DNA from: a virus
IMG/VR virus record: IMGVR_UViG_3300047372_000605
Coordinates: 28,959-92,958 of that record
Length of the DNA stretch: 64,000 nt
Reading direction: 5' to 3' (one strand)
Positions 9,564-59,509 of the stretch are shown piece by piece. The position numbers and the translations under genes are program-made. Below the pieces are notes generated by a model, which made no database searches, was not told the origin of the DNA, and worked only from the letters and a program-made list of their open reading frames with translations. The number at the start of each line of letters is the position of its first letter. Position 1 is the first letter of the stretch.

Positions 9564-10076
9564 ATGACTAAAAATTATATTTACGATGTAGATGAAGATA
9601 CAGTTTTAGAAAAAATATCACAACTGCAACCCCTTAATTATAATCAATTTAGATGGTGGAGAAGATTTGATTCTCCAAACAAACCATTACACAAATATTC
9701 TGATTTACTAGATAAAATCCAAAATGGTGATTATGAATTCTCTCATTATTACTGGCAAGCAAGATATGCCGAAATGGAAATAAATCATTTACACCATGAA
9801 ACATATCCCGATGCTGTTTTATTTAATGAAAAAAATGCTATGAACGGTGCTAGAAGAAAACGTTTGTGGGATGATTTTGAAAAAGACGAAAAAGAACGTA
9901 TTAATAGTATTGAAAAAGATTTCTATATGAAGTTCAAAATGTCTCGAAAGCAAGTAAAAGAAGAAATGGGAGGGTTTGGAGGTACACTAGAAAATTTTTA
10001 TCATTATTGTGATAAAGAATTTGGAACAAGACGAGAAAAATTACAAACACGAGGAAGACCAAGAAAAGTTATATGA
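9564..10076 (+). CDS. Hypothetical protein with C-terminal AT-hook
   Basis: A 170-aa protein rich in Trp, Tyr and His in its first half (FRWWRRF, FSHYYWQARYAEMEINHLHH) and helical and charged in its second half. It ends in RGRPRKVI, an AT-hook. It overlaps the DpdA-like gene by 4 nt (ATGA), so the two are probably translated together. That makes a DNA-binding partner of the DNA-modifying enzyme an attractive but unproven idea. No family is recognised. Confidence 0.65.
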   Translation: MTKNYIYDVDEDTVLEKISQLQPLNYNQFRWWRRFDSPNKPLHKYSDLLDKIQNGDYEFSHYYWQARYAEMEINHLHHETYPDAVLFNEKNAMNGARRKRLWDDFEKDEKERINSIEKDFYMKFKMSRKQVKEEMGGFGGTLENFYHYCDKEFGTRREKLQTRGRPRKVI

Positions 10077-10864
10077 AAGTATCACATGAAGCACCAATTC
10101 CCTACATGAAACAAGTTAGGGGGTTAATTGATTATGACTATTGTTTACCACACTTGCTAGATGAAAGCGAAGAATATAAACAATATTTTCAAGAATCTAA
10201 AGAAATGCAACGTTATATTATTATGGATAATTCCTTACATGAATTAGGAGAACCATATGATTCAGAACGCCTAGCCCATTGGTTATATTATTTTAAACCT
10301 GATGAATTTATAGTACCAGATTACTGGCAAGATAAAACAGCTACATTAGTATCAGCTAAAGAATGGGTTAATAAAAAATATCCTGAAAATACAACCCCAG
10401 TAGCTGTAGTACAAGGTAAAAATGAAGGTGAAGCTAGAGAATGTTATAGAATATTAAAATATCAAGGTTATGAAAAAATAGCATTTAGTTATGGTGCAGA
10501 TTGGTATTATGGTAAGGGAAAAGAAACATCTAAAAATATAGAAAATATAACAGTAACAAAAGCTCATGGTAGATATAACTTTATAAAAGAATTATATGAA
10601 GAAGATACTATTAAAAAATCAGATAGAATACATTTATTAGGATGCAATATTCCTCAAGAATTTAAATGGTATAAAAATATGCCATTTATTAAAACAATAG
10701 ACACATCAAACCCAGTTATACATGGTTTATCAGGAATAAAATATGAGCCCTGGGGATTGGATAACAAAATATCTACTAAGGTAGATAAATTTAAAGGAGA
10801 AGCTGAACATTGGGAAACAGCAATTTATAACATACAATTATTTAAAACATTTATACCAACATGA
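10073..10864 (+). CDS. dpdA: DpdA-like 7-deazaguanine DNA transglycosylase (TGT fold)
   Basis: This 263-aa protein looks like the tRNA-guanine transglycosylase superfamily. MDNSLHE (D52) sits where TGT has its base-recognising Asp, VVQG (112-115) matches the substrate loop, LLGCN (188-192) fits the glycine loop, and KTIDTSNP (D210) matches the nucleophile Asp region. The zinc-binding CxCxxC end of bacterial TGT is absent and the protein is short, as in phage DpdA enzymes, which swap guanine in DNA for a 7-deazaguanine. It overlaps queC by 4 nt and shares a region with queD, queE and folE, which strongly supports a DNA-modification role. An alternative is a tRNA-acting TGT relative. Confidence 0.72.
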   Translation: MKVSHEAPIPYMKQVRGLIDYDYCLPHLLDESEEYKQYFQESKEMQRYIIMDNSLHELGEPYDSERLAHWLYYFKPDEFIVPDYWQDKTATLVSAKEWVNKKYPENTTPVAVVQGKNEGEARECYRILKYQGYEKIAFSYGADWYYGKGKETSKNIENITVTKAHGRYNFIKELYEEDTIKKSDRIHLLGCNIPQEFKWYKNMPFIKTIDTSNPVIHGLSGIKYEPWGLDNKISTKVDKFKGEAEHWETAIYNIQLFKTFIPT

Positions 10865-11730
10865 AACAAGCAGTATTAAGTTTAAGTGGTGGAATGGATA
10901 GCAGTACACTATTACTTCACCTATTAGCAAACGATTATAAAGTAACAGCTCTTAGTTTTGATTATGGTCAAAAACATAGAGTTGAATTAGAAAGAGCACA
11001 ACAATTAGTAGATTACTTAAATAGTAAAGCAAGTGAAACTTTAGCTAAAAATGATTTAGGAGAAACTATTAAACATAATTTTGAGCCTATTACATATCAA
11101 TCTATTAAATTAGACGGTTTAACATCACTATTAGATTCAGCTTTAGTAGAAGGTGGAGATGATGTTCCTGAAGGACATTATGAAGAAGATAATATGAAAG
11201 CAACAGTAGTGCCTAATAGAAATAAAATATTTTCATCACTAATACAATCTGTAGCATTATCAATTGCTAACAAAACAGAATCAGCGGTAAAAATAGCAAT
11301 GGGTATTCATGCTGGAGATCATGCAATTTATCCTGATTGTAGACAAGAATTTAGAGATGCAGATTATAAAGCATTTTCGGAAGGTAACTGGGAAGCATCA
11401 AGGGTATCATTATACACACCATATTTAAATGGAGATAAATTTGATATTTTAAAAGATGGAGAAGTATGTTGTAAAGAATTAGGGATTGATTTTAATGAAG
11501 TATATAAAAGAACTAATACATCATATAAACCAACAGCTGAAGGATTATCAGATTATAAATCAGCATCTTCAGTAGAAAGGATAGAAGCATTTTTAAAACT
11601 AGGTAGAAAAGACCCTGTCATATATGTAGATGGTTGGGACACAGCAAAATCTCATGTTGAAAAATTATTAGCCGATCATGCAAATAAGCCTAACATGAAT
11701 GATACTATCGACATGGTAAATAATATGTAA
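10861..11730 (+). CDS. queC: QueC-like 7-cyano-7-deazaguanine (preQ0) synthase
   Basis: This enzyme converts 7-carboxy-7-deazaguanine to preQ0 using ATP and ammonia. The N-terminal PP-loop is clear: SLSGGMDSSTLLLHLL, with SGGMDSS at residues 9-15, followed by FDYGQKHRVEL. The NRNKIFSSL and MGIHAGDHAIYPDCRQEF segments also match QueC. The C-terminal zinc site is odd: where QueC has cysteines before VERxEAF, this protein has SDYKSASSVERIEAF, with Ser or Asp at those places. The fold may be held without zinc. At 289 aa it is slightly longer than bacterial QueC. Confidence 0.88.
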   Translation: MKQAVLSLSGGMDSSTLLLHLLANDYKVTALSFDYGQKHRVELERAQQLVDYLNSKASETLAKNDLGETIKHNFEPITYQSIKLDGLTSLLDSALVEGGDDVPEGHYEEDNMKATVVPNRNKIFSSLIQSVALSIANKTESAVKIAMGIHAGDHAIYPDCRQEFRDADYKAFSEGNWEASRVSLYTPYLNGDKFDILKDGEVCCKELGIDFNEVYKRTNTSYKPTAEGLSDYKSASSVERIEAFLKLGRKDPVIYVDGWDTAKSHVEKLLADHANKPNMNDTIDMVNNM

Positions 11731-11731
11731 T

Positions 11732-11887
11732 ATGAAGCAACCAGACGCAAAAAAGCATCAAGTAATAAGTTTTATAAAATCAGGAATTCGTATCTTAGGA
11801 TATGGATTTCTTGTAATTAATTTGCCTATTGCAGTAATTTTACTTATATTAAGTGAAGCAGTAGGAATAATAGAAGAATTAGTATAA
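11732..11887 (+). CDS. Small single-span membrane protein
   Basis: A 51-aa ORF with a basic, polar start (MKQPDAKKHQVISFIKSG), one membrane segment (about residues 22-43, ILGYGFLVINLPIAVILLIL) and an acidic end (EELV). It starts 1 nt after the queC stop codon, and its own stop overlaps the queD ATG (TAATG), so the frame is fixed by its neighbours. The function is unknown. Confidence 0.65.
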   Translation: MKQPDAKKHQVISFIKSGIRILGYGFLVINLPIAVILLILSEAVGIIEELV

Positions 11888-12351
11888 TGGGAAAATTTCA
11901 ATCAAGTAAAGTTTTTGACGGGTTTAGTACAGTGTTTCGTCAATGGAAAGCTGAAGATACACACTGTAGGTTTTTACATGGGTATGGTATTTCATTTAAA
12001 GTATATTTTGAAGGTGAATTAGATGGTAGAAATTGGGTTTGGGATTTTGGAGGAATGAAAAGAGCCAAAACTAAAATTGATGGTAAATCTCCTAAAGAAT
12101 GGTTTGATTTTATGTTTGACCATACTGTAATAATAGCAGAAGATGACCCAGGAATGGGTGGTTGGGAAACAATGAATAAATTGGGAGTTATTCAATTAAG
12201 AGTTATTGAAGCAACAGGAGCAGAAAAATTTGCAGAGTTTATCTTTAATAAAGTAAATGATTTTGTCCATGAAGAAACTGAAGGTAGAGTAAGAGTTACT
12301 AAGGTTAAATTTATGGAACATGGTAAAAATGCAGCTTACTACTGTGAATAA
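11887..12351 (+). CDS. queD: QueD/6-pyruvoyltetrahydropterin synthase-like protein
   Basis: In the 7-deazaguanine pathway QueD turns dihydroneopterin triphosphate into 6-carboxy-tetrahydropterin. Family features are a C-x3-HG segment ([19 protein letters not shown]), WVWDFGGMK and FDHTVII, in the usual order. The zinc site is not canonical: the family HGH motif reads HGY here, and the N-terminal zinc His region reads STVFRQW. The enzyme may have changed its metal site or its chemistry. It is 154 aa and sits between queC and queE, which supports the pathway assignment. Confidence 0.75.
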
Positions 12352-12358
12352 AAAAATA

Positions 12359-12443
12359 GGAAAGATGGCAGAGCGGTCGAATGCGCTGGTCTTGAAAACC
12401 AGTTTACTGAAAAGTAACGGGGGTTCGAATCCCTCTCTTTCCG
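12359..12443 (+). tRNA. tRNA-Ser (anticodon UGA)
   Basis: A type II cloverleaf. The acceptor GGAAAGA (12359-12365) pairs with TCTTTCC (12436-12442), with discriminator G. The anticodon stem CTGGT/ACCAG holds the loop CTTGAAA with anticodon TGA. A long variable arm (TTACTGAAAAGTAA) is typical of tRNA-Ser, followed by the T-arm GGGGGTTCGAATCCCTC. CCA is not encoded. UCA-type codons are frequent in this AT-rich genome. Confidence 0.95.
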
Positions 12444-12450
12444 CAAAAAT

Positions 12451-12521
12451 TACCGGGTCGTCTAGTGGCAGGACATTTGGTTTTGGTCCAGAGAACGGAG
12501 GTTCGAATCCTTCCCCGGTAA
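12451..12521 (+). tRNA. tRNA-Gln (anticodon UUG)
   Basis: The acceptor TACCGGG (12451-12457) pairs with CCCGGTA (12514-12520). The anticodon stem TTTGG/CCAGA encloses TTTTGGT with anticodon TTG. The T-loop TTCGAAT is present. It lies 7 nt after tRNA-Ser in a three-tRNA cluster. Confidence 0.93.
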
Positions 12522-12530
12522 CTATTAAAT

Positions 12531-12607
<77 letters not shown>

Positions 12608-12621
12608 CTAAAATTAAATAA

Positions 12622-13392
12622 ATGAAAAGAATAGAAGATTATAATAAAGTATTACCAGTTTTAGAAGTATATAGGTGTGTACAATCAGAAGGATCTAGAT
12701 TTGGTAGACCTACAATAGCAGTTAGAACAACAGGTTGTACTCACAGATGCTATTTTGGAGAAGGTGGTTGGTGTGATTCTTGGTATACAAGTATACATCC
12801 AGAAAAAGGTACATTTACATTTAATGATATTATTAAAATATATGATGATAATCCTCATGTAAAAGAAATGATGTTAACAGGTGGTTCACCTACAATGCAC
12901 CCTGCTTTAGTAAATGAAATAACACACTTTGCAAATGAAAGAAATATACTTGTTACAATTGAAACTGAAGGTTCTCATTTTCTTGAAACCGATTATCCCT
13001 TGGATCTTATTAGTCTTAGTCCTAAGTTTTCTAATTCAGTTCCTGTAATAGGAGCTATTACACCTAATGGAGCAGTAGCAGATGAAAGAATGATTAAAGT
13101 CCATAACAGACTTAGATTAAATAAAGAAGCTATAGGAAAAACAATTGCATACCATAAAGACTATCATTTTAAACCAGTATGGGATGGCACAGATAAAAAT
13201 TTAGAAGAAATAGAGGCATTTAGAGTTGAAATGGATATACCAAAGGACAAAACATTTATTATGCCAGCTGGAGATACTAGAGAAACACTAATAAAAATGT
13301 ATCCTTTAGTATTTGAATTATGTGCTGAAAAAGGATATAATATGACAGGTAGAGACCATATTATAGCATTTGATACAGAACGAGGTGTCTAA
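12622..13392 (+). CDS. queE: QueE-like 7-carboxy-7-deazaguanine synthase (radical SAM)
   Basis: This radical-SAM enzyme rearranges 6-carboxy-tetrahydropterin to 7-carboxy-7-deazaguanine. The N terminus has the QueE pattern EVYRCVQSEGSRFGRPTIAVR. The cluster-binding cysteines are C39, C43 and C51 (C-x3-C-x7-C, ending WCDSW). The last spacer is longer than the usual x2; expanded motifs are known in some QueE proteins. MMLTGGSPTMHP matches the SAM-binding GGxP loop, and ETEGSHF follows. At 256 aa it is ordinary for the family and lies directly after the tRNA cluster. Confidence 0.9.
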   Translation: MKRIEDYNKVLPVLEVYRCVQSEGSRFGRPTIAVRTTGCTHRCYFGEGGWCDSWYTSIHPEKGTFTFNDIIKIYDDNPHVKEMMLTGGSPTMHPALVNEITHFANERNILVTIETEGSHFLETDYPLDLISLSPKFSNSVPVIGAITPNGAVADERMIKVHNRLRLNKEAIGKTIAYHKDYHFKPVWDGTDKNLEEIEAFRVEMDIPKDKTFIMPAGDTRETLIKMYPLVFELCAEKGYNMTGRDHIIAFDTERGV

Positions 13393-13519
13393 GGAGGAAG
13401 CATTAGAAATATTAGAAGAAATAAAAGAAAACGTAAACGTTTGTTGTGCCATTACTATGGAACCAGACGAAGTATTAGATTTAATAGAAAAATTAGAAGA
13501 ATATTTAAGAAATGAATAA
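13385..13519 (+). CDS. Very small acidic helical protein (GTG start)
   Basis: A 44-aa frame starts at GTG 13385 inside the end of queE and runs into the nuclease gene start, stopping at 13517-13519. It is almost wholly helical, acidic and leucine-rich (EEALEILEEIKENV, EVLDLIEKLEEYLRNE) with a CC pair in the middle. It fills the gap between queE and the nuclease with overlaps at both ends, as expected for a real gene here. No function is recognised. Confidence 0.5.
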   Translation: MSKEEALEILEEIKENVNVCCAITMEPDEVLDLIEKLEEYLRNE

Positions 13520-14087
13520 AATAAAAATAACATTAATTTTAATACTTAGCAGTGTTTTAAATTATAGTCAAGTAATAAAAACTGACATATTTACAGTTAA
13601 ATATTCTGAAGAATATCAACAACCAATTTGGTTAGAATATACAATACAATGCCCAAACGGACACGCTGAAAGAACAGGTATGAATTTTTGGGTACCTAAA
13701 GGGGTAAAAACATCAGATGATGCAGATTATGTAGATAATATTTACGATAAAGGTCACTTAGCACCTGCGGCAGCATTTAACTGTGATAAAGAAACCCTAC
13801 TTAAAACATTTTCATACTTAAACTCAGCTTTACAACATGAAGGACTAAACAGAGGACAATGGGCAAGACTAGAATCATTTGAAAGAAGTTTAGCTAATTT
13901 CTTTGATAAAGAAGTAAAAGTAAGAGTAGATGTCTTATTCGAAGGTAAATTAAAAAAGGTAAAAGGTGGAGCTACAATACCTAGTGGCTTTAGAAAAACA
14001 ATAATAATGGGAGATATTAAAAAAATATTTGAATTTCCAAACGCCGATACAAAAGGTACAAGTTGGATAGAATATCTCAAAAAATAA
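13512..14087 (+). CDS. Secreted DNA/RNA non-specific endonuclease (NUC1 family)
   Basis: A beta-beta-alpha-metal nuclease. A signal peptide is present (residues 1-19: MNKIKITLILILSSVLNYS). The catalytic motif is DKGHLAPAA (79-87) with H82 as general base, and the downstream LNRGQWARLE contains the metal-binding Asn and a Glu. The family degrades DNA and RNA without sequence specificity. Export would keep it away from phage DNA, so it could break down host DNA in the periplasm or nucleic acid outside the cell. It overlaps the 44-aa ORF by 8 nt. At 191 aa it is a compact member. Confidence 0.85.
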   Translation: MNKIKITLILILSSVLNYSQVIKTDIFTVKYSEEYQQPIWLEYTIQCPNGHAERTGMNFWVPKGVKTSDDADYVDNIYDKGHLAPAAAFNCDKETLLKTFSYLNSALQHEGLNRGQWARLESFERSLANFFDKEVKVRVDVLFEGKLKKVKGGATIPSGFRKTIIMGDIKKIFEFPNADTKGTSWIEYLKK

Positions 14088-14093
14088 AAAATT

Positions 14094-14249
14094 ATGAAAG
14101 TAACAAATTTATGGAATAAACTTAGAATATTAAGTGGTAATATTTTAGAAATTAAGATTAGGATAAGTAAATTTATAATATTAGATTTATTTGTAAGTAC
14201 AAACAGATTTAAATTAATGATTTTAAATATTGGATTTGAAAGCAAGTAA
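14094..14249 (+). CDS. Small hypothetical protein
   Basis: A 51-aa ORF, basic and rich in Ile and Leu (LEIKIRISKFIILDLFV), with no domain recognised. It starts 6 nt after the nuclease and overlaps the start of the lipoprotein gene. It may be a short amphipathic or membrane-associated protein. Confidence 0.45.
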   Translation: MKVTNLWNKLRILSGNILEIKIRISKFIILDLFVSTNRFKLMILNIGFESK

Positions 14250-14805
14250 AATATTACTTATACTTTTAGTTTTAATAGGTTGCAATAAAGAAGATGAAGA
14301 TGGTTATAGAGTTTATACTATAGATAGAGGTAACCATTACTCAGATGGCCCTATAGATAAATTATTTGGTAATAATAATAGAGCTGAATCATGGGAATGG
14401 GAAGTTATATTTGAACCATCTTGTATTTACTCAGAATCAGATTTATTTAATCCCTCAAATTATTTAGACGTTAATAAATTAATAGGTTTTTCAGATTGTG
14501 ACAGACACCATTCTCAATATTCATGTAGAATAGGTTGGAGAGCATCAGGTGATTCTATTGAATTACTAATATATAAGAGGGATGATAATAATATAGAATT
14601 TAAATCCCTTAAAAAAGTATACCCAGACCAAATAGTAAACGTTACTTTAGATTTTAAAGACACTATTTACACATCTTGTATAGATGGAACTTGTGATACG
14701 TTAATAAGACCTTGTCCAGATTGGTCAGGTAGAAAATATTCACTGTTTCCATTCTTTGGTGGTCAAGAAACGGCACCACATAAAATGAAAATTAGAATAA
14801 AATGA
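14236..14805 (+). CDS. Lipoprotein of unknown function (TTG start)
   Basis: The TTG at 14236 gives the compact signal MKASKILLILLVLIGC, a typical lipobox with the lipidated Cys at residue 16; a TTG at 14230 is a two-codon-longer alternative. No ATG serves the frame. The mature part is about 170 aa, with several cysteine pairs (SCIYSES, SDCDRHHSQYSCR, CIDGTCDTLIRPC) that suggest disulfides, and aromatic strands. A role in superinfection exclusion or envelope change is possible but not shown. It overlaps the next gene by 4 nt. Confidence 0.65.
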   Translation: MKASKILLILLVLIGCNKEDEDGYRVYTIDRGNHYSDGPIDKLFGNNNRAESWEWEVIFEPSCIYSESDLFNPSNYLDVNKLIGFSDCDRHHSQYSCRIGWRASGDSIELLIYKRDDNNIEFKSLKKVYPDQIVNVTLDFKDTIYTSCIDGTCDTLIRPCPDWSGRKYSLFPFFGGQETAPHKMKIRIK

Positions 14806-15967: not shown

Positions 15968-16609
15968 ATGAGTAAACAAAGAACATTAAATGAGCTGAGA
16001 CAAACTAAGGATGCACATTATATTCCAAAGTATGATCCTCAAACAGGAGATAAAAATCCTCATTATAAAGAACTAACAGGTGAAGAACTTGAAGAGATGA
16101 TGAATGAAACAGATGCACCTCCAGGAGTTCAATTTGTAAATGAAGTAGAAATATTTAATGCCACATTTGGTAAACCAAACAACTATGTCCCAACAATCCC
16201 AGAAAAGAAAGAAACAGATTTCGTCTACGACTTTTGTATCGAAGAAATCACAGAATATCAAGAAGCTTGCAAAAACGGAGACATCGTGGAAATTTTGGAT
16301 GCTATTTGCGATATTGCTTATGTTACCTTGGGGAATGCCACTATGTTACATGGCCTTAAAGATAAGATTTGGCCAGCGTATAAAGAAGTCCAGGCGTCAA
16401 ATATGTCTAAGTCTTGCAAAACTGAAGAAGAAGCAGCACAAACTGTCACTCAAAGAGCTAAGGAACAAGGTGAAGAATGCCATTTTGAAAAAGTAGGAGA
16501 TAGATATGTTGTATACAGAACAAGAGACAGAAAGGTTATGAAATCTATTAACTATTTTAGACCAGATTTAAAGCAGTTTTTCACTGAAGAGGAATTAAAA
16601 AATGTTTAA
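15968..16609 (+). CDS. MazG-like all-alpha NTP pyrophosphohydrolase
   Basis: A 213-aa protein. Residues about 65-150 carry the metal-binding pattern of MazG and phosphoribosyl-ATP pyrophosphohydrolases: FCIEEITEYQEA with the EExxE motif, then EILDAICDIAYV with the ExxxD motif. The last 60 residues are an added domain (KVGDRYVVYRTRDRKVMKSI). Such phage enzymes hydrolyse nucleotides and may alter ppGpp or modified dNTP pools. It overlaps the polymerase gene by 8 nt, placing it in the replication operon. Confidence 0.75.
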   Translation: MSKQRTLNELRQTKDAHYIPKYDPQTGDKNPHYKELTGEELEEMMNETDAPPGVQFVNEVEIFNATFGKPNNYVPTIPEKKETDFVYDFCIEEITEYQEACKNGDIVEILDAICDIAYVTLGNATMLHGLKDKIWPAYKEVQASNMSKSCKTEEEAAQTVTQRAKEQGEECHFEKVGDRYVVYRTRDRKVMKSINYFRPDLKQFFTEEELKNV

Positions 16610-18278
16610 AAAAGCATTTGCACGAAGAATAGGAGGAAACAAACATTTAATACATCTTTGGACTGACACAGGTTATGAGAAAGTTGAATGGACAAACTTT
16701 GCCTATAAAGAATGCAGTGAAGCAGATGCTGATTATATAGGTTTAAATGGCGAACCACTAAGAAAGACTAGTAAATGGGGTCCTGATGATTCAGGACTCC
16801 ATTTTCATGACATGAAAGCATATCAAAAATTCTTAATTGAAAAATATGGTACTAATGATGAACCATCTACTACACACAGAGAATTATTTTTTGATATTGA
16901 AACTGAAATGGGTGATGCTTTAACACCTGAATACATTCAAAATGCACCTAAAAAAGTTACATCTATAGCTTGGTATGATAAACAAGTAGATGAATGGGGT
17001 ATATTAATTTTAGATACTAAAAACCAATTAGAACATACTAAAGCTAGAAACAAAGAAATTACACCTTGTAAAACCGAAAGTGATTTACTAGCTAAATTCT
17101 TAGAAAAATTTAGAGAAATCGATCCTGATATTATAATAGGATACAATAGTGATTATTTTGATATACCATACCTATACTACAGAATGTGTAATGTATTAGG
17201 TGAAGATTGGGCTAGACATTTATCTCCTATTGGTTATGTAAGAGAAACACCTTGGTTTAAAGACCAATATATTCAAATAGCAGGTGTTGAATCTCTTGAT
17301 TACATGCGTTTACATAAAAAGTTTAGTTGGAAAGATGAACCATCATGGAAATTAGATGCTATTGGAGAAAAATATGCAGGTATAAATAAAGTTGAATATG
17401 AAGGTAATTTAGATTCTTTATTTGAAAGTGACATAAATAAATTCATCCAATATAACTTTGTTGATGTTGAAATACTAGTTGAATTAGATAAAAAATTAGA
17501 ATATTTAGCTTTAACTAAAAATCTATCACATAAAGGTAAACATAACTATAGTGAGGTATATGCTAATACAAATACCCAAGATGGTGCTATTTCGGCTTAC
17601 TTATTATCCCAAAATATTATCCCACCTGCTAAAGACAAAGACTTAAAAGCAGAAAAAGGATATGCTGGAGGTTATTTATTTTGCCCTAAAGCAGGAATAT
17701 ACAACTATATGTTTGATGAGGATTTAACTTCACTATATCCCTCAATTATTATGTCTCTTAATATAGGTAAAGAAACATTAAAAGCAAGAATCATAGATGC
17801 TGATGATAGAAATAATAGATTAGGATTAAATGATTTAAAAGCTAAAGACCCAGATAGTACTATTATTATTAAAAACCATAAAGGCAAACGAGCTGAAGTT
17901 ACAATAGCTAACCTATTAAAATTTATAGAAGGAAATCAATTTACTATATCAGCTAATGGTACTATGTTTGCTACAAATAGACAATCAGTACTATCAACTA
18001 TACTAGCTAAATGGTTTGGTGAAAGAGTATTATATAAAGGTAAAATGAAAAAAGCATACCAAGCTAAAGATAAAGAAGCAGGAGCTAAATATCATTTACT
18101 ACAATATACAATGAAAATTTTATTAAATAGTTTATATGGTGCAACAGCATTACCTAGTTTTAGATATGGTAATGTTAATTTATCAAAAGCTATAACACTT
18201 TCAGGACAAAGAATTATTCAAGAATCAGCTTTAATAGCAAATAAAAAAATGAACGAGGAGATAAAAAATGTTAAGTAA
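16602..18278 (+). CDS. 43: DNA polymerase family B, part 1: exonuclease, motifs A and B
   Basis: This is the T4 gp43-like replicative polymerase, first segment (558 aa). 3'-5' exonuclease motifs are FFDIETE (D98, E100), IIGYNSDYFDIPYL and FIQYNFVDVEIL. Polymerase motif A is DLTSLYPS (from D374) and motif B ends in NSLYG (509-513). The frame then stops (EEIKNVK) before motif C, which lies in the gene starting at 18528. The catalytic Asp pair of the palm is therefore divided over two polypeptides. Split family B polymerases are known in some T4-like phages. An 11-nt overlap links it to the next ORF. Confidence 0.92.
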   Translation: MFKKAFARRIGGNKHLIHLWTDTGYEKVEWTNFAYKECSEADADYIGLNGEPLRKTSKWGPDDSGLHFHDMKAYQKFLIEKYGTNDEPSTTHRELFFDIETEMGDALTPEYIQNAPKKVTSIAWYDKQVDEWGILILDTKNQLEHTKARNKEITPCKTESDLLAKFLEKFREIDPDIIIGYNSDYFDIPYLYYRMCNVLGEDWARHLSPIGYVRETPWFKDQYIQIAGVESLDYMRLHKKFSWKDEPSWKLDAIGEKYAGINKVEYEGNLDSLFESDINKFIQYNFVDVEILVELDKKLEYLALTKNLSHKGKHNYSEVYANTNTQDGAISAYLLSQNIIPPAKDKDLKAEKGYAGGYLFCPKAGIYNYMFDEDLTSLYPSIIMSLNIGKETLKARIIDADDRNNRLGLNDLKAKDPDSTIIIKNHKGKRAEVTIANLLKFIEGNQFTISANGTMFATNRQSVLSTILAKWFGERVLYKGKMKKAYQAKDKEAGAKYHLLQYTMKILLNSLYGATALPSFRYGNVNLSKAITLSGQRIIQESALIANKKMNEEIKNVK

Positions 18279-18531
18279 ACAATCCATAAGAAAAGAACAC
18301 ATTATACTTTTAAATAGAGTAAAAATGTCAAAAGATGAAATCATAGAAATATCTAAAGATTTCACAGAACCTGAAGAACAACGATTTAGAAAAATATTAC
18401 AACAAGGTGGTAAAATTTCTATTCAAGGTAAAAAATTTGAAATAGTAAAAGATTTAAAAGACTATGCTAGAAATAGTAAAGGTGAATATGAAGCTCCAGC
18501 TAAACCTCATAGAAACGAAGACTGGGAATGA
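18268..18531 (+). CDS. Small ORF inserted between the polymerase halves
   Basis: An 87-aa, basic, helical protein (SIRKEHIILLNRVKMSKDEI, RKILQQGGKISIQGKKFEIV, shown in pieces) in a different frame from both polymerase parts. It overlaps part 1 by 11 nt and part 2 by 4 nt (ATGA). It carries no homing-endonuclease motif. It sits where an insertion between motifs B and C would be, so it may be a structural linker chain in a three-subunit polymerase or a remnant of the event that split the gene. Confidence 0.65.
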   Translation: MLSKQSIRKEHIILLNRVKMSKDEIIEISKDFTEPEEQRFRKILQQGGKISIQGKKFEIVKDLKDYARNSKGEYEAPAKPHRNEDWE

Positions 18532-19505
18532 AGCATTTAGAAGACACACCATGGTGGATATGTGATCCTGAAGATACTAACTATTGTGCTTATGTAGACA
18601 CAGATAGTAATTATTTTCATGCTGAACCTTTATTAAGACATAGATTTCCTAATTTTGATGGAATGTCTGATAAGGAAAAGGATACTGAACTAGAAAAAAT
18701 TGCCCTAGAATATCAAGATATTATTACAGACCATTACAATAATGTAGCTAAGGACGTTTTTAATATAAATCAATTTGAATGGTTTGATAAGCCACATTGG
18801 TTAGAAATGAAAACTGAATGTGTAATAAGATCAGCTTATTTTAGAGCAACTAGAAGGTATGCACAATGGATCACTAAACAAGAAGGTGTTGAAAAAGAAA
18901 CACTTGATATTAAAGGTTTAGAGTTCCAAAAATCTAATTTTCCACCTATACTAGGTAAATTCTTTAATGATGTTTTAGTAGACGTTTTAAAAGGTGAAAC
19001 ACAAGATGATATAGATGCTAGAGTAAAAACATTTAAAAAGCAAGTATTAGATGGAACCATACCATTAACAGATTTAGGTAACCCAACATCAGTAAAACAA
19101 ATAGGTAAACATCAAGGCAAACCAGCCAGAAAAGGAGAAATGTTATCAACATTTAATCATGTAGAAAATAAAGTAGGCAGAAAATTAGGTGCACCTGCAG
19201 CAGTAAAAGCAGCTATTAGATATAACGATTTACTTAGATTTTGGAAATTAGATAGCAAATACGAATTAATTACCAATGGTACTAAAATAAAATGGATTTA
19301 TCTTAAAAATAACCCATATCAAATTGAAGAAATAGCATTTCTAGATTATGATATGCCAGAAAAAATTCGTACATTCATTGAGCAGTATGCTGATAGAAAA
19401 AAAGTATTTGAAAGTATTTTATTAAATAAATTAGAGGGATTCTATGGTGATTTAGAATGGAACTTAAACTTAAACCCCTACATTAATCAATTTTTTGACT
19501 TATGA
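18528..19505 (+). CDS. 43: DNA polymerase family B, part 2: motif C and thumb
   Basis: The second polymerase segment, 325 aa. Motif C is AYVDTDSNYF (Y22, D24, T25, D26, S27) near the N terminus. Further on are MKTECVIRSAYFRATRRYA, in part, and LDIKGLEF, the KKRYA/KG region of family B enzymes, and then the thumb. The C terminus (NPYINQFFDL) resembles the clamp-binding tail of T4 gp43 (DFLFG-like). Segments 1 and 2 are both in frame 0, so the split could have arisen by insertion of the middle ORF. The parts should assemble into one active enzyme. Confidence 0.9.
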   Translation: MKHLEDTPWWICDPEDTNYCAYVDTDSNYFHAEPLLRHRFPNFDGMSDKEKDTELEKIALEYQDIITDHYNNVAKDVFNINQFEWFDKPHWLEMKTECVIRSAYFRATRRYAQWITKQEGVEKETLDIKGLEFQKSNFPPILGKFFNDVLVDVLKGETQDDIDARVKTFKKQVLDGTIPLTDLGNPTSVKQIGKHQGKPARKGEMLSTFNHVENKVGRKLGAPAAVKAAIRYNDLLRFWKLDSKYELITNGTKIKWIYLKNNPYQIEEIAFLDYDMPEKIRTFIEQYADRKKVFESILLNKLEGFYGDLEWNLNLNPYINQFFDL

Positions 19506-59168: not shown

Positions 59169-59306
59169 ATGAAAACAACAATTGACTATCTAGTGTCAAA
59201 TCAAATGGCAGTAGAATTAGATCAATTAATGGGTCATAATTTACCTTGGCAACAAGCTTCAACAAAAGATGGTGTAAATTATTTCAAATTAGATGAAGAG
59301 CTGTAA
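59169..59306 (+). CDS. Small hypothetical protein with a duplicated 3' end
   Basis: A 45-aa ORF (TTIDYLVSNQMAVELDQLMG, NYFKLDEEL at its end). The DNA coding for its last residues (ATTAGATGAAGAGCT, 59289-59302) is nearly repeated at 59451-59465 beyond the structured RNA, where the same frame would read FKLDKELA and stop. The RNA element thus appears to have entered at the end of this gene. Confidence 0.55.
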   Translation: MKTTIDYLVSNQMAVELDQLMGHNLPWQQASTKDGVNYFKLDEEL

Positions 59307-59442
59307 AATTGTAGGGGTATGGCAGGTAAGCCACCTATTGGAAATGTCTGAAAGCAGAAATGCAAAGTCGAGTGCGAATGGTGGAATATGCACGAGGTAA
59401 TGGCGTAACGAAGAGTTCGAATCCTTCACCCCTATGTTTTAC
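59303..59442 (+). ncRNA. Candidate structured RNA with tRNA-like ends
   Basis: A long closing stem is made of GTAAAA/TTTTAC (59303-59308 with 59437-59442) and TAGGGGT/ACCCCTA (59312-59318 with 59428-59434). Inside are GCA-GAAA-TGC (about 59354-59363), GTGC/GCAC (59372-59375 with 59389-59392), and CCACC/GGTGG (59331-59335 with 59380-59384) that cross other stems, suggesting a pseudoknot. The last part, GAGTTCGAATCCTTC, resembles a tRNA T-arm with a bulged stem, but no anticodon arm can be made. It is much less AT-rich than its surroundings. It could be a degenerate tRNA, an invading RNA element or an unknown ncRNA. Confidence 0.55.
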
Positions 59443-59476
59443 AACTTTAAATTAGATAAAGAGCTTGCGTGAGATA

Positions 59477-59509
59477 TTTGGTTACCTGAAATAGGGTTCG
59501 TATATTCAC
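59477..59509 (+). promoter_or_regulatory. Bacteroidota-type promoter, TTTGG-N19-TATATTCAC
   Basis: TTTGG at 59477-59481 and TATATTCAC at 59501-59509. The spacer TTACCTGAAATAGGGTTCG has the ACC/GGT dyad. Confidence 0.76.

Follow-up and report, generated by a model that had tools for sequence, protein, structure and literature searches.

An unannotated tRNA-like RNA that falls outside tRNA, intron-bearing tRNA, tmRNA and all Rfam families is encoded at positions 59312-59434 (+ strand) of the window, that is, the whole 64,000-nucleotide stretch of DNA analysed here. The window is part of a 92,958-base phage record with T4-like genes, which comes from a marine bacteriophage. The structured RNA is 123 nt long, is closed end to end by an acceptor-like helix, and is recognized by its homologs and by compensatory changes. 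With somewhat more confidence than doubt, we read it as a noncoding and stable RNA of about 123 nt that mimics tRNA, is processed, lies at the end of an operon, and is carried as accessory cargo.

The RNA starts soon after the stop codon of a small upstream gene (59169-59306, +, with its ATG at 59169), which anchors a variable site and can be followed through relatives by DNA identity (93% in L214 and 77% in L215); a family search with this gene returned none. The first-pass annotation had drawn attention to a stretch of higher GC, and the GC content of 59312-59434 is indeed 0.47, while the flanks have 0.30 and 0.27. The RNA is present as a single copy in the phage genome record. The DNA polymerase of this phage matches T4-like polymerases, and its gene is divided into two ORFs, 16602-18278 and 18528-19505, which are separated by a small ORF (window 16602-19505).

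Fold, homologs and covariation

The RNA has one relative among the GenBank phages searched with blastn, an unannotated stretch of the Tenacibaculum jumbo phages PTm5 and PTm1 with 85-86% identity over 106 nt, and nothing was found there outside Tenacibaculum phages. In PTm5 (L002 2995-3116) and PTm1 (L003 2995-3116), the homolog sits between two CDSs. A pattern scan showed that another contig, L004, carries the identical RNA. Beyond PTm1 and L004, no homologs came out of degenerate pattern scans of viral contigs, in which the other matches were due to chance, and the scan of genome contigs gave no further homologs among the matches listed. A covariance model built from the RNA (R1) found none at E <= 1e-4 in 396 genomes from the phylum of Chryseobacterium sp. 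OV279.

When the window RNA is aligned with those of PTm5 and PTm1 over 123 columns, nine pairs change on both sides and 98.9% of cells pair. None of 500 shuffles reaches nine pairs, and slid controls give at most one. The earlier claim of a structured RNA is therefore upheld by homologs and by covariation, which together indicate that the fold is more than thermodynamic chance. The minimum free energy of 59298-59450 is -41.6 kcal/mol (z = -2.15), and that of the RNA core alone is not extreme (z = -1.3 in the window and -0.6 in PTm5). The RNA is noncoding, since the window and PTm5 share no frame that stays open across it and differ in it by a 1-nt indel. An ORF on the reverse strand was considered as a coding origin and rejected, as it is not kept in PTm5.

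The outer part of the fold resembles a tRNA. Its acceptor-like helix pairs TAGGGGT (59312-59318) with ACCCCTA (59428-59434) over 7 bp, and five of these seven pairs differ between the window type and PTm5/PTm1, all with compensation. Judging from this alignment, we take the helix to be real beyond reasonable doubt, despite a shallow sample of two sequence types. In the predicted fold, it is prolonged outward, with an interruption, by TGTAAAATTG (59302-59311), which holds the stop codon of the upstream gene, and TGTTTTACA (59435-59443). The helix of PTm5 is also prolonged outward (12 bp), by a sequence other than that of the window.

The T-arm, GAAG(a)G-TTCGAAT-CCTTC (59410-59427), follows from fold, alignment and covariation and joins the 3' strand of the acceptor-like helix with no gap. 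Its stem has 5 bp, with one bulged A in the window that is absent in PTm5/PTm1 (GTAAG-TTCAAAT-CTTAC), and its loop reads UUCGAAU or UUCAAAU (UUCRAAU). One compensatory pair was counted in this arm, and a second (G-C to A-U) was seen by eye across the one-base indel. The T-arm-like string GAGTTCGAATCC is present in the RNA; with two or fewer mismatches, its sole other occurrences are in two tRNAs of the phage. A D-arm-like hairpin, GGC-AGGTAA-GCC (59321-59332; GGC-AGGGAA-GTC in PTm5), aligns to the D-arms of tRNAs in hits of R1. Its 3-bp stem varies in pairing on one side only, and its loop is AGGKAA (AGGUAA or AGGGAA).

The D-like hairpin and the T-arm are separated by about 75 nt that are nearly invariant and contain two hairpins. 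One is a GNRA hairpin, GCA-GAAA-TGC (59354-59363), and the other is GTGCG...TGCAC with a 12-nt loop (59372-59393); each has one compensatory pair. A possible pseudoknot is suggested by CCACC (59331-59335), whose first bases overlap the D-like stem and whose proposed partner is GGTGG in the hairpin loop (59380-59384), with one compensatory pair from C-G to U-A. Where the anticodon stem of a tRNA would be, a weakly supported inner helix may pair ATGTC (59344-59348; ATGYC in the comparison) with GGCGT (59402-59406), with one one-sided change and one unpaired cell in PTm1. The core helices rest on single compensatory pairs at most because only two distinct sequence types are known. Between the window and PTm5/PTm1, conservation is higher in the core than in the acceptor helix. 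Three features read from the letters at first pass, namely the long interrupted closing stem, the hairpin with a GAAA loop and the T-arm-like 3' part, are all found in this fold.

Comparison with tRNA and other RNA families

The likeness to tRNA can be measured with R1, which was applied unfiltered to 4 kb of the window (10500-14500). Its best three hits there, at 18.7, 16.5 and 12.6 bits, are exactly the three tRNAs of the phage, which ARAGORN and Rfam place at 12.3-12.6 kb, and tRNAs also take the first five places in the T4 tRNA cluster. In a 5-kb locus that has no tRNAs, the highest score is 12.3 bits; the ranking of tRNAs is specific, and the best two tRNA scores are clear of this background. 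Queuosine-pathway-like ORFs flank the three tRNA genes (window 10073-13392), QueC-like at 10861 and QueE-like at 12622, as read by eye from translations.

The RNA shares with tRNA (RF00005) a 7-bp acceptor coaxial with an adjacent 5-bp T-stem, a T-loop of the UUCRANY type (UUCRAAU) and a short D-like arm with GG in its loop. It differs in having a 75-nt insert and no anticodon arm, in its 3-bp D-like stem, and in an acceptor-like helix that runs on outward past the normal tRNA end in both the window and PTm5. No anticodon arm with a 7-nt loop was found between the D and T arms, introns allowed or not, and no consistent anticodon emerged. At the RNA locus, no tRNA was reported by ARAGORN, and none by Rfam at the gathering threshold.

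Other families with tRNA-like parts or with introns were compared in the same way. Like the RNA described here, tmRNA has a tRNA-like domain in which the anticodon region is exchanged for a larger pseudoknotted domain, but the window RNA is far too short and has no tag reading frame, and there was no covariance or ARAGORN match to tmRNA. Group I and group II intron families gave no covariance match. YrlA, a bacterial Y RNA, is a noncoding RNA with a tRNA-mimicking module and is known from phages too. The window RNA resembles it in having such a module, while Y RNA does not appear among its Rfam matches at E up to 10, and the phage record, which is partial, holds no Ro60/Rsr (TROVE) gene. The covariance-model search called for at first pass (Rfam, tRNA and intron families) thus matched no family.

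Two readings would nevertheless tie the RNA to something already known. The RNA might be a tRNA gene with a very small undescribed intron in the anticodon region, either self-splicing or removed by an enzyme. The order of the acceptor, D-like and T arms is that of a tRNA, a partial anticodon stem might form from ACCT/AGGT, and ARAGORN builds tRNA models when introns are allowed. But the window yields tRNA-Ala(ggc) with a 49-nt intron at lowered thresholds only, and PTm5 yields tRNA-Arg(acg) with a 35-nt intron; such forced models disagree, so the earlier remark that the RNA fits no tRNA model is borne out. As the supposed exon parts (the D-arm and anticodon region) are conserved as much as the supposed intron, and no known intron family matches, we regard an interrupted tRNA as improbable. 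Still less credible to us is a distant relative of RAGATH-12 (RF03149) to which tRNA-like ends were added. Among the weak Rfam matches, RAGATH-12 looks best (13.5 bits, E = 7.7), and it shares a loose order of a few core motifs, UGUCUG, a GAAA hairpin, a second hairpin and AGGUA. This score is far under the RAGATH-12 gathering score of 75, however, and the PTm5 homolog has no RAGATH-12 match. RAGATH-12 lacks the acceptor and T-arm, and reciprocal tests failed: a phage sequence 93% identical to a stretch of the RAGATH-12 consensus has neither T-arm nor acceptor and scores only 6.6 bits with R1. Membership in RAGATH-12 was rejected after a search of 36 entries and 399 genomes of one phylum, phages and plasmids, which gave one phage sequence, without tRNA-like parts.

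Genomic position and likely exchange

In both phage types, the RNA follows the last gene and closes a transcription unit. PTm5 has a strong 10-bp intrinsic terminator 9 nt after the RNA. In the window, a promoter-like repeat at 59474-59509 (+) directly follows the site and heads the next transcription unit. This intergenic element, ATATTTGGCTACC...GTTCGTATATTCAC, is repeated six times in the window ahead of genes (40441, 56462, 57944, 59477, 59753 and 60715, all +) and occurs also in L004, L214 and L215; it probably represents a family of phage promoters with long spacing.

The first-pass annotation had described the RNA as inserted and had proposed a comparison of the site in related phages. 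The comparison agrees with this description, for other content takes the place of the RNA after the same small gene. L214, a close relative, has a 220-aa protein with a MutH domain (842-1504, -), possibly a restriction-type nuclease, and L215 has a 189-aa ORF. In PTm5 and PTm1, restriction-modification genes lie near the RNA. R1 matched none of the 80 records of polymerase relatives, an absence that is only partly informative because many of these records are fragments, although several are of 158-164 kb.

Compared with 47 kb of PTm5, the window has a single DNA match, which is the RNA. The clamp loader encoded in that region shares 32% identity with that of the window phage, and the DNA polymerases of the window phage and PTm1 share 29%. 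The retention of the RNA between such distant phages therefore needs either horizontal exchange or strong constraint, and exchange is favored because the distribution is patchy.

A duplicated flank surrounds the RNA, as had been noticed at the outset. Its left copy (59283-59302, +) is the gene end, and its right copy (59446-59465, +) reads FKLDKELA-stop; the two are identical at 18 of 20 positions, a level reached by one of 300 flank shuffles. The right copy had been thought to restore the end of the gene. It would supply the end of a related allele of this gene, but it is out of frame with the gene as read through the RNA. The duplication had also been taken as the trace of an integrating element, which would make the RNA a mobile element that inserts with target duplication. 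Besides the 18/20 repeat, the patchy occurrence of the RNA speaks for such an element, whereas L004 has the identical RNA and the left flank with no right copy, the PTm5 homolog has no flanking repeat, and the RNA is a single copy in the genome record. We give this mobile-element reading very little weight. Because the repeat is absent in L004 and PTm5, and the right copy would terminate an allele related to the small gene immediately ahead of the promoter-like element, the duplication is best interpreted as a scar that recombination at the gene end left in this lineage.

Possible roles and the parallel with T4 RNA C

We propose that the RNA is made as the last element of the operon transcript. 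In the folded RNA, the GG of the D-loop may dock on the T-loop, and the tRNA-like end would let host RNase P and tRNase Z cut the RNA out and would also shield it. Alternatively, excision might be carried out by RNase III acting on the extended stem. The pseudoknotted domain would be the effector, through which the RNA would most likely bind or sequester a host protein that binds tRNA. The RNA might, for instance, be a decoy that occupies a translation factor or a defence that targets tRNAs, and the phage would keep it as exchangeable accessory cargo. Any function as decoy or regulator is conjectural, and in any particular target we have much less confidence than in the overall reading.

The same processing could serve the mRNA instead. 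Cleavage by RNase P and tRNase Z would then punctuate the transcript, giving the mRNA a defined and protected 3' end, and the released RNA would be functionless. The RNA does end the transcription unit in both phage types, before a terminator or a promoter. But the core is conserved above the acceptor helix, and this is therefore more than a pure punctuation signal needs; we think it rather unlikely that the RNA is a 3'-end stabilizer only. To our knowledge, few structured noncoding RNAs have been recognized in phages, and T4 RNA C has been without a known role for decades. A tentative and broader possibility, in which we place limited confidence, is that an undescribed class of phage effector RNAs exists. 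In such RNAs, the tRNA elbow would be a handle for stability or targeting, attached to a swappable pseudoknotted effector, and the whole would be anti-defence or host-takeover cargo passed between distant phages, with T4 RNA C sharing the same design. The alleles that replace each other at the site point to conflict between phage and host or between phages, and the cultured phages PTm1 and PTm5 make expression and deletion testable.

By its architecture, T4 RNA C (species 1 RNA, rnaC) is the closest known kind to the window RNA. It is a phage-encoded RNA of 139 nt whose role is unknown (PMC3014915; PMC9697503), and it has no Rfam family. Both RNAs are encoded by phages, fall within 120-140 nt, and have a T-arm abutting a 7-nt acceptor-like pairing, each with compensatory changes, and a middle unlike tRNA in which other structure takes the place of the anticodon arm. 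In the tevenvirus RNA C sequences compared (T4, RZH, Kc304 and EnC15), the T-arm varies as CCGGG/CCCGG, CCTGG/CCAGG and CCAGG/CCTGG, and the acceptor-like pairing is kept with a compensatory change from A-U to G-C; the T-loop of Kc304 deviates from the consensus. Unlike this likeness in plan, the middles have no sequence similarity, and R1 scores only 8.3 bits at rnaC, below tRNAs. RNA C also lies in a tRNA cluster, whereas the window RNA occupies a cargo site at the end of an operon. That distantly related T4-like phages have a second RNA, unrelated in sequence but sharing these tRNA-like ends, suggests that the design recurs and is not an oddity of T4. RNA C homologs lie at L237 1909-2047 (-) and L277 346-439; in Escherichia phage 55, the counterpart carries a tRNA-Lys annotation.
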